Positions 11,073-38,928 of a DNA stretch of 64,000 bases are shown here, piece by piece. The stretch lies in NCBI GenBank assembly GCA_013200995.1, contig CP053688.1:682001-746000 (forward strand), read 5' to 3'. Position 1 is the first letter of the stretch. Each line of letters begins with the position of its first letter. The notes under the pieces were generated by a model that saw only the letters and a program-made list of their open reading frames with translations, made no database searches and was not told the origin of the DNA. This DNA comes from Arthrobacter citreus. GTDB lineage: Bacteria; Bacillota; Bacilli; Bacillales; Bacillaceae_G. A program made the translations under genes and the position numbers.

Positions 11073-12148
11073 ATGAAGCAATACTTAGATTTATGTAAAC
11101 ACGTATTAGACAATGGCATGACAAAAACAGATCGTACTGGAACAGGAACTATCAGTACATTCGGTTATCAAATGCGATTTAATCTTCAAGATGGCTTTCC
11201 TTTAGTAACGACTAAGAAAGTTCATCTAAAATCAATCATTCATGAATTACTATGGTTTTTAAAAGGCGATACGAATATTGCATATTTAAAAGAAAATGGT
11301 GTTCGTATTTGGAATGAGTGGGCAGATGAGAATGGTAATCTAGGTCCTGTTTATGGTGAACAATGGAGATCATGGAAAGCTGCTGATGGTTCTACAATTG
11401 ATCAAATTTCCGAAGTTATTAATCAAATAAAAACAAATCCAGATTCACGAAGAATGATTGTCTCAGCTTGGAATGTTGGAGAACTTGATAAGATGGCATT
11501 AGCACCATGTCATTGTTTCTTCCAATTTTATGTGAATGATGGAAAGTTATCTTGTCAGCTTTATCAGCGTTAAATTTGAGCGCCTTTACAGAGTGATCTG
11601 TACCGAAAACCTTGCTAAACGGGGAAACTCTTTAATTAAAGACAATCCCGTGCTAAATTTATTCTTTGTTAATTAACAAAGAATAATAAATGCCTAACGA
11701 CTATCCAAATATGGAGTAGGGTGCAAGTTATTGGCACTCGAAATGCAAGGGGCCTCGTCTATGAGGCCGTGATATAGTCTCATCTGCATGGTGACATGTA
11801 GCAGTTCTCTTAAGAACGGGCCAGGCGTAACGAACTTGGTTGAAGATCTTGTCAGCTGACATTTTCCTAGGAGTACCATTTAACATCGCATCTTATGCAC
11901 TTTTAACTATGATGATTGCTCAAGTATGTGATTTAGAATTAGGTGATTTTGTACACACATTTGGAGATGCTCATATTTATACTAATCATCTTGAACAAAT
12001 TAATTTACAACTATCAAGAGAGCCACATAAATTACCGAAAATGAAGTTAAATGCTGAGATTAAAAACATTTTTGATTTTAAATTTGAAGATTTTACATTA
12101 GAAGATTATGAATTCCATCCTGCAATTAAAGGGGTAGTAAGTGTATGA
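11073..12148 (+). CDS. thyA: Thymidylate synthase, two exons (11073-11570 and 11852-12148)
   Basis: Thymidylate synthase makes dTMP from dUMP with methylene-tetrahydrofolate. Exon 1 encodes residues 1-166, including catalytic Cys146 ([10 protein letters not shown]), and stops being coding exactly at LYQR; exon 2 resumes with [11 protein letters not shown]. Joining 11570 to 11852 gives 264 residues, the normal length of the E. coli/ThyB-type enzyme, with no residue missing. The interruption is a group I intron, so active enzyme requires RNA splicing; unspliced translation stops at a TAA immediately after Arg166. GGGGG precedes the ATG. The stop codon overlaps the dfrA start by 4 nt, joining two enzymes of the same folate cycle. 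Confidence 0.95.
11571..11851 (+). ncRNA. Group I intron (td-like, no ORF) in thyA
   Basis: The 281-nt insert begins TAAATTTGAGCG and ends GATCTTG, splitting thyA between Arg166 and Ser167. Exon 1 ends in U and the intron ends in G, as group I splicing needs. P1 can form between exon AGCGU and intron GCGC at 11580-11583 with a U-G pair at the splice site. The core segments AAACGGGGAAACTC, GACAATCCCGTGCTAAAT, CCTAACGACTATCC, GATATAGTCTCATCTG and GCATGGTGACATG closely match, from memory, the phage T4 td intron (subgroup IA2). A 24-nt perfect palindrome at 11661-11684 forms a peripheral hairpin. There is no endonuclease frame, so it is splicing-proficient at most, not mobile by itself. Confidence 0.95.
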
Positions 12149-12627
12149 TCGCTGCATTAGTTGCTATGTCAGAAAACAATGTGATTGGTTTAAATAATGA
12201 AATGCCTTGGCATCTTCCGCAAGAGCTGGCTTATTTTAAAAAAGTGACTACTGGACATACAATTATTATGGGAAGAAAAACCTTTGATTCGATTGGTAGA
12301 CCACTTCCTAAACGTGAGAATGTCATTGTAACAAGACAAAAGGATTTTCATCCTGAAGGTGTTACGGTTATAAATGATGTGATCAGTTATCTTGAAGAAC
12401 ATAAAAACGAGGATTTATTTATTATAGGTGGAGCTGAAATATTTAATTTAACCTTCCCATACTTAGATACCCTTTATATTACTGAAATTGAACATAATTT
12501 TGATGGAGATACATTCTTCCCAAACTTTTTAAAGGAAGATTGGAATGTTAAATCCGTATCTGAAGTGCAGATTGATGAAAAATCCAAAATAAAATTTCGC
12601 TATTTTATATATGAAAAAAAGTGTTGA
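12145..12627 (+). CDS. dfrA: Dihydrofolate reductase
   Basis: The 160-residue enzyme regenerates tetrahydrofolate consumed by ThyA. Family marks are [32 protein letters not shown] and IIGGAEIFN. The active-site acid is Glu27 in place of the Asp of E. coli DHFR; Glu also occurs in some Bacillus enzymes. The start ATG overlaps the thyA stop (ATGA), so expression depends on the thyA transcript and possibly on intron splicing altering upstream translation. A promoter for azoR starts inside the last codons. Confidence 0.96.
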
Positions 12628-34567: not shown

Positions 34568-34604
34568 AATTATTAATAAAATGTTTCAGAGATGTGACAA
34601 CAAA

Positions 34605-34888
34605 ACGACTGTGAAAGGACGAGTAGTAGTAGGACGTAGACAAAGCGAGTCAGGGGTGGTGTGAGCCTGATACGAAGCCTATTATGAAGAACCTCCTGGA
34701 GTCGCTGACCGAAATCCTTTAGAGGAAAGTAGACTTAGCCGTGATCTTCGACGTTACAAGAAGAGCAGTATCGAGATCTCTCTAATCTCCGTACTGAATA
34801 AGTGAGCAACCTCTGTTGCTAATTTGGGTGGTACCGCGGAACCAAAGCCTTTCGTCCCAGTTTTTTTGGGAAAGAAGGGCTTTTTTTG
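34605..34888 (+). promoter_or_regulatory. T-box leader (tRNA-sensing) controlling asnA
   Basis: The diagnostic T-box sequence TGGGTGGTACCGCGG is at 34825-34839, preceded by the stem III hairpin AGCAAC/GTTGCT and followed by a strong terminator at 34844-34887 (GCCTTTCGTCCC pairing with GGGAAAGAAGGGC, then seven T). The long 5' part (34605-34790) supplies stem I. Uncharged tRNA would bind and stabilise the antiterminator. tRNA-Asn is inferred from the gene downstream; an AAC in GAAGAACCTCC near 34690 could be the specifier, but I could not fold stem I reliably. Confidence 0.93.
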
Positions 34889-38745: not shown

Positions 38746-38828
38746 GAATACTTTTAATATAGTTTTTTACAACTAAATATAAGCTAATTAAGTTCAGTCA
38801 CTTTTATTTTAAAGTGATTCTTAATACG

Positions 38829-38928
38829 CTCGTATAATTTTGGAAATAAACGGTCCAAGAGTATCTACCAAACTGCCGTATAGTTTGACTACGAGAGATA
38901 TGACATAACATAATCTCTCCTATTTTTT
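38829..38928 (+). promoter_or_regulatory. Purine riboswitch (guanine-type) controlling adeC
   Basis: The aptamer at 38829-38895 has P1 CTCGTA/TACGAG, the J1/2 and J2/3 consensus (TATAAT, AGTATCTACC), P2 TTTTGG/CCAAGA and P3 AAACT/AGTTT. The specificity base corresponding to position 74 is C (38889, in TTTGACTACG), which selects guanine or hypoxanthine instead of adenine. The 3' strand of P1 overlaps a terminator stem GAGAGAT (38893-38899)/ATCTCTC (38913-38919) followed by TATTTTTT, so ligand binding should influence termination. Confidence 0.93.

Follow-up and report, generated by a model that had tools for sequence, protein, structure and literature searches.

A T4 td-like group I intron in the thyA gene of a Gottfriedia genome and a recoded empty site in intronless sister species

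In this study, we found that the thyA gene (11073-12148) of a 64,000-nucleotide stretch of bacterial DNA, called here the window, is interrupted after codon 166, between Arg166 and Ser167, by 281 nt, and our sequence comparisons confirmed that this insert (11571-11851) is a T4 td-like group I intron, which we take to belong to subgroup IA. The intron is very probably functional and would be spliced from the transcript of the sole thymidylate synthase gene found in this genome, which groups within Gottfriedia (Bacillaceae). This kind of intron is already known, with a precedent in the thyA of Bacillus mojavensis that the original prediction did not name; what had not been expected is the empty site of the intronless sister species.

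The insert scored 86 bits with the Rfam group I model RF00028 (gathering score 50) in covariance-model searches of the short stretch and of the whole genome, in agreement with the original prediction of a group I intron. A run over the whole window at the gathering score did not list the 281-nt intron, most likely because of its faster filters. The window also carries a T-box leader (34602-34862) and a purine riboswitch (38810-38911). When the two thyA exons were searched separately and unjoined, no PF00303 position was lost or duplicated across the split, and the exons sum to 264 codons, so the predicted insertion point, insert length and residue number were all reproduced. The intron begins with an in-frame UAA, ends in G and is directly preceded by U11570. 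There is no open reading frame inside it on the + strand, and the sole frame of at least 60 aa that overlaps most of it lies on the - strand (61 aa); a transposase gene, the mark of an IStron, was not found in the 281 nt. Since the intron is present in 7 of the 13 genomes of the genus, an assembly error is excluded. The gene and the predicted helices are arranged as follows, all on the + strand, with cells counted over 13 introns.

11073-11570, +, thyA exon 1 (codons 1-166), PF00303 positions 1-168, E 7.8e-83
11567-11570, +, 5' exon side of P1 (GCGU), with U11570 in a U-G pair
11571-11851, +, td-like group I intron, 281 nt, RF00028 match at 11561-11801
11576-11583, +, internal guide; 11580-11583 pairs with exon 1 (P1), 11576-11579 with exon 2 (P10)
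11588-11592 / 11597-11601, +, P2, two-sided change at 5 of 5 pairs in 13 introns
11610-11615 / 11745-11750, +, P3, pairing in all 78 cells, both sides changed at 4 of 6 pairs
11620-11623 / 11647-11650, +, P4, enclosing P5, 52 of 52 cells paired
11630-11633 / 11638-11641, +, P5, 48 of 52 cells paired
11659-11686, +, P6a hairpin, a perfect palindrome of 28 nt and the place at which relatives have an endonuclease gene or its remnants
11699-11703 / 11775-11779, +, P7, invariant in 13 introns and hence outside the covariation test
11704-11707 / 11712-11715, +, P7.1, 51 of 52 cells paired
11719-11724 / 11734-11739, +, P7.2, 72 of 78 cells paired
11751-11756 / 11763-11768, +, P8, 76 of 78 cells paired
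11784-11790 / 11795-11801, +, P9, 91 of 91 cells paired
11804-11808 / 11813-11817, +, P9.1, 56 of 65 cells paired
11821-11825 / 11835-11839, +, P9.2, 65 of 65 cells paired
11852-11855, +, exon side of P10, the first bases of exon 2
11852-12148, +, thyA exon 2 (codons 167-264 and the stop; 98 aa), PF00303 positions 169-266, E 2.2e-42
12145-12627, +, dfrA, named from its position, the original prediction and related loci; its start overlaps the thyA stop (ATGA, 12145-12148)

The U before the intron, the G at its end and the P1 pairing had been noted from the sequence beforehand, and we found them again, with 4 pairs in P1 and 4 in P10. We compared 16 introns at the thyA site, comprising that of the window, those of six Gottfriedia sisters, six from other Bacillaceae or Bacillales genomes or MAGs, one from phage KKP_4047 and two from IMG/VR contigs. 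P1 has 4 pairs and P10 has 3 to 6 pairs in all 16, of which 8 were retrieved with a DNA pattern that contains the P1 bases and the UAA, and the 7 of Gottfriedia by protein match. In the pattern scans, a thyA exon adjoined 13 of the 17 genome matches and two of the five viral matches, and the remaining seven were excluded; two of the 13 genome loci (L087 and L088) are partial introns and were kept out of the P1/P10 comparison. P10 covaries with the exon, as the exon 2 start UCUGG of two introns meets the guide CCAGA and the start UCA meets UGA. The introns of L081 (REN16), L095 (a Bacillales MAG), L077 (UViG24312), G112 and G240 end in A instead of G by exon frame and P10 pairing.

For the covariation test, 13 of the 16 introns were used, and those of REN16, the Bacillales MAG and UViG24312, which differ around P5-P6, were excluded. 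In these 13, 719 of 741 cells were paired and 38 of 57 pairs showed two-sided change, against 210-323 paired cells and 4-8 such pairs when the partner was slid by 1-3 columns, a comparison in which the structure has an advantage because it was drawn on the window sequence. P5 and P7 showed no two-sided change in the 13 introns; P7, the guanosine site, is invariant, and P6 stood outside the count. When the comparison was confined to the seven introns of Gottfriedia, two-sided change was left at just 1 of 57 pairs, so the covariation signal stems from introns outside the genus. The fold of the intron with its flanks gave a z of -5.1, and none of 100 shuffles was as stable. The minimum-energy structure contains P2, P3, P4, P5, P6a, P7.1, P7.2, P8, P9 and P9.1, and it does not contain P7 or P9.2. 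Covariation among the 13 relatives supports most of the predicted core helices.

After transcription, the RNA would fold, guanosine would attack after U11570, the freed exon would attack after G11851, and the joined exons would encode a 264-residue ThyA. In the unspliced mRNA, translation would stop at the UAA after 166 codons and, given the ATGA overlap, translation of dfrA may be reduced as well. Searches of the genome itself found one thyA and no thyX. The dependence of dTMP synthesis on splicing, which the original prediction had drawn, should therefore hold, and the independent intact thyA that would have spoken against it was not found in these searches. Exon 2, downstream of the intron stop, has a dN/dS of 0.081 in 21 carrier pairs and of 0.060 in 10 intronless pairs, and exon 1 has 0.040 and 0.042, respectively. 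At the level of sequence change, these values show that the exon downstream of the intron stop is under purifying selection.

In the carriers, exon 2 has double the ratio of exon 1, as might be expected of a dead relic, that is, a non-splicing intron in a thyA pseudogene of a cell that uses thymidine or another enzyme. We consider this very improbable, however, because the ratio is far below 1 and close to the intronless value, P1, P10 and the structure are intact in all seven Gottfriedia carriers, and no thyX was found in the genome. Still harder to credit is a two-piece enzyme, whose exon 1 and exon 2 products would be translated separately and assemble without splicing: an open frame with a TTG start exists at 11840-12148, but this TTG falls within the conserved P9.2, the split interrupts Arg-Ser, which is presumably the phosphate-binding motif of ThyA, and the compensatory changes in the ribozyme core would need another cause. 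A functional, splicing intron remains our reading.

The original prediction had allowed that the whole thyA came from a phage, and this part did not hold. At the DNA level, nine other Gottfriedia species, with and without the intron, share 91.2-93.6% identity with the window in exon 1 and 89.6-93.9% in exon 2, and the two outgroups share 82-86%. The protein encoded by exon 1 has 97-99% identity to that of five named Gottfriedia, and of the 3,776 matching records in the phage collection none reaches 80%. On this comparison, the thyA of the window is a native gene and not a phage import. The intron core is 91.8-93.8% identical to those of the Gottfriedia sisters, and this difference of 6-8% is roughly that of the exons. 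Outside the genus, the nearest cores lie in the bacterial thyA of Priestia abyssalis (79.0%) and Bacillus sp. FJAT-14578 (78.2%), followed by those of Rossellomorea (76.2%), Bacillus phage KKP_4047 (75.2%), Pseudalkalibacillus (71.7%), T4 td and a B. subtilis plasmid thyA with the intron at another site (69.7% each, for T4 over 234 columns), and UViG2886 (66.8%). Support is low (28-77) at the deep nodes of this tree of introns. The source of the intron may have been a phage or a chromosome.

In the genus, 7 of the 13 genomes have a thyA split by intron DNA and five an unsplit orthologue; one (G003:C12:7545-8480, L071) has a longer thymidylate synthase with an open frame of 341 aa, replacing the 264-residue type, and was excluded from the exon comparisons. 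An order-wide sample gave a thyA match in 243 of 249 genomes, and at least seven were split at the window site (four Gottfriedia, G112, G181 and G240), as judged from the score column, with the low single scores of G066, G093, G209 and G234 and second copies left aside. The introns of G112 and G240 are letter-identical to those of L095 and L081, respectively, which are probably the same genomes. The site is intron-bearing in other Bacillaceae and also in phages.

The original prediction stated that the intron had lost, or never had, an endonuclease. The absence stands, and the sister genomes point to loss as the most likely course, also for the window copy. Among the seven carrier species, one has a frameshifted GIY-YIG gene in the P6a loop, three have remnants, and three, including the window, have none. 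In Bacillus sp. FJAT-25509 (G012), the gene lies in two frames, the first piece being the GIY-YIG domain and the second NUMOD3 with the I-TevI DNA-binding domain. AFS001701 (G002) and G011 keep the first endonuclease codons and share one deletion remnant, and Gottfriedia acidiceleris 1-17 (G009) has a shorter remnant in P6a. No recognisable remnant was found in the introns of AFS088145 (G005), AFS055030 (G010) and the window, and the window intron has no GIY-YIG endonuclease in P6a of the td/I-BmoI kind. In Rossellomorea aquimaris, this position is occupied by an open GIY-YIG frame of 279 aa, and the gene is broken or a remnant in Pseudalkalibacillus, P. abyssalis and FJAT-14578. To judge from these relatives, a GIY-YIG endonuclease in the P6a loop probably once drove homing of the intron, and after its decay the intron would have persisted as a passenger without mobility of its own. 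The rpoB-locus tree (5.1 kb) does not place G002 and G011 together as sisters, so their shared remnant suggests that intron alleles crossed between species or that an older allele sorted unevenly.

At the insertion point, Gln-Arg-Ser is written CAG CGT|TCA in the carriers and CAA AGA|AGY in the intronless G004, G006 and G007. The six fixed exon differences are all synonymous and lie at -4, -3, -1, +1, +2 and +3, which are the P1/P10 pairing positions, and no further fixed difference between carriers and intronless species was found in the other exon bases of 795. Among the 120 three-versus-seven splits of the ten species, only the observed one gives at least three fixed differences within 10 nt. 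A switch of codon box occurred at one of 10 invariant serines, that of the empty site, and at two of eight invariant arginines. The uniform codons of the carriers would follow from their pairing in P1 and P10. In a survey covering 28 of the 30 loci submitted, CAG CGT TCA occurred in 2 of 28 intronless genes (5 of the 28 from Gottfriedia), and the codons vary here. G004, G006 and G007 do not form a clade in the rpoB-locus tree (separating branches with support 94, 97 and 100), so the shared recoding points to a patch of common origin, either inherited or spread by short gene conversion. Escape from endonuclease cutting was considered as the cause of the recoding and was weakened, as the recoded alleles keep the G-C at -2; I-BmoI is reported to need this pair, and A at -4 to be harmless, while G at -3 and -1, where the recoded alleles have A, slows cutting (PMC3161791).

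Two histories could explain this distribution. It is plausible, although we do not go as far as to favour it outright, that the clade of ten species inherited the intron from its ancestor and that short gene conversion later put a recoded intronless allele in its place on three occasions, in G004, G006 and G007. The divergence of the window intron core from its sisters, about like that of the exons, is consistent with this, and so is the placement of G006 within the carriers of the rpoB-locus tree; the branch beside G006, however, has a support of 63, and CAA AGA AGT may be an ancestral spelling, as it is also found beyond the genus, in G045. We regard it only as possible that the recoded intronless site was ancestral to the clade and that repeated entry of the intron introduced CAG CGT|TCA by co-conversion. 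The flanks of phage KKP_4047 are identical (CAGCGT|TCA), and the remnant types cross the rpoB-locus tree, which suggests that alleles moved between species, but co-converted tracts as short as 7 nt would be required every time, and outgroups G001 and G008 have CGN TCN codons. A broader proposal, which we find rather doubtful, is that two thyA alleles compete in the genus and that the recoded intronless one, altered by synonymous changes at just the bases read by the intron's guide in P1 and P10, acts as a natural cure, very short gene conversion having driven the intron out of several species. If so, an intron landing in the recoded allele without its own flanks would be unable to splice.

Edgell and Shub are said to have described in 2001 a group I intron with I-BmoI in the thyA of B. 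mojavensis. Like that of the window, it interrupts the chromosomal thyA of a member of the Bacillaceae, but it has 1122 nt and an active endonuclease, while the window intron has 281 nt and none. One paper places I-BmoI in an intron of the chromosomal gene (PMC1995217), and a second describes I-BmoI and its thyA target (PMC3161791), in which CGT stands just before the insertion point as in the window, a likeness taken from the description only. Phage beta22 has a thymidylate synthase intron with a pseudo endonuclease, comparable in its decay although it lies in a phage gene and has 392 nt, according to a table entry (PMC1995217). Bacillus phage KKP_4047 (L003) shares the site and the guide, and differs in that the gene is a phage gene and P6a holds an unrelated short sequence. 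T4 td has the same core plan, including P7.1, P7.2, P9.1 and P9.2, so the td-like core of the original prediction was recovered by comparison; its intron differs in having 1017 nt and I-TevI, and its split lies exactly seven codons (21 nt) downstream, at the distance originally predicted. P. abyssalis (L086), FJAT-14578 (L084) and R. aquimaris EaN35-1 (L091) have the window's site and thyA followed by dfrA, but the first two retain an endonuclease remnant and the third its open GIY-YIG frame. A few introns are reported from the thymidylate synthase genes of Bastillevirinae phages (PMC11878797), and bacterial group I introns are described as rarer in protein-coding than in structural RNA genes (PMC3984707). 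Our literature search, with subscription journals mostly outside its scope, gave nothing that combines Gottfriedia with an intron and, in the parts of the sources available, no earlier description of the decay series or of a recoded empty site.

Other group I introns were met in the course of the analysis. A second one in the same genome (G000:C1:2627051-2627333, - strand; loci L007/L072) scored 52 bits with RF00028 (gathering 50) and splits a gene of which both halves match the RtcB RNA ligase (PF01139); its exon frame gives no G at the 3' end. No case of rtcB with a group I intron appeared by title among the literature matches listed. The idea that the weaker intron matches in relatives lie in rtcB was rejected, as tblastn of nine loci matched only L072. 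Td-like intron sequence was also seen in split genes for the large subunit of ribonucleotide reductase (L073 in G012 C33, L074 in G007 C17 and L075 in G014 C1). L075 includes a gene for a GIY-YIG endonuclease, L073 and L074 only remnants; the L073 gene and the L075 endonuclease were assigned by Pfam. In B. subtilis plasmid NZ_CP106792 (L005, 1700-3800), a phage-like thyA is interrupted at another position by a related intron that encodes a NUMOD3 endonuclease.

Taken together, a group I intron lies in the sole dTMP-making gene found in this genome, and the series of decay stages with the rewritten empty site is instructive. One gene in one genus presents a broken endonuclease, remnants, no endonuclease and an empty site. 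As all these stages occur within a single genus, the losing phase of the homing cycle, together with the later fate of the empty site, should be directly testable in cultured bacteria.
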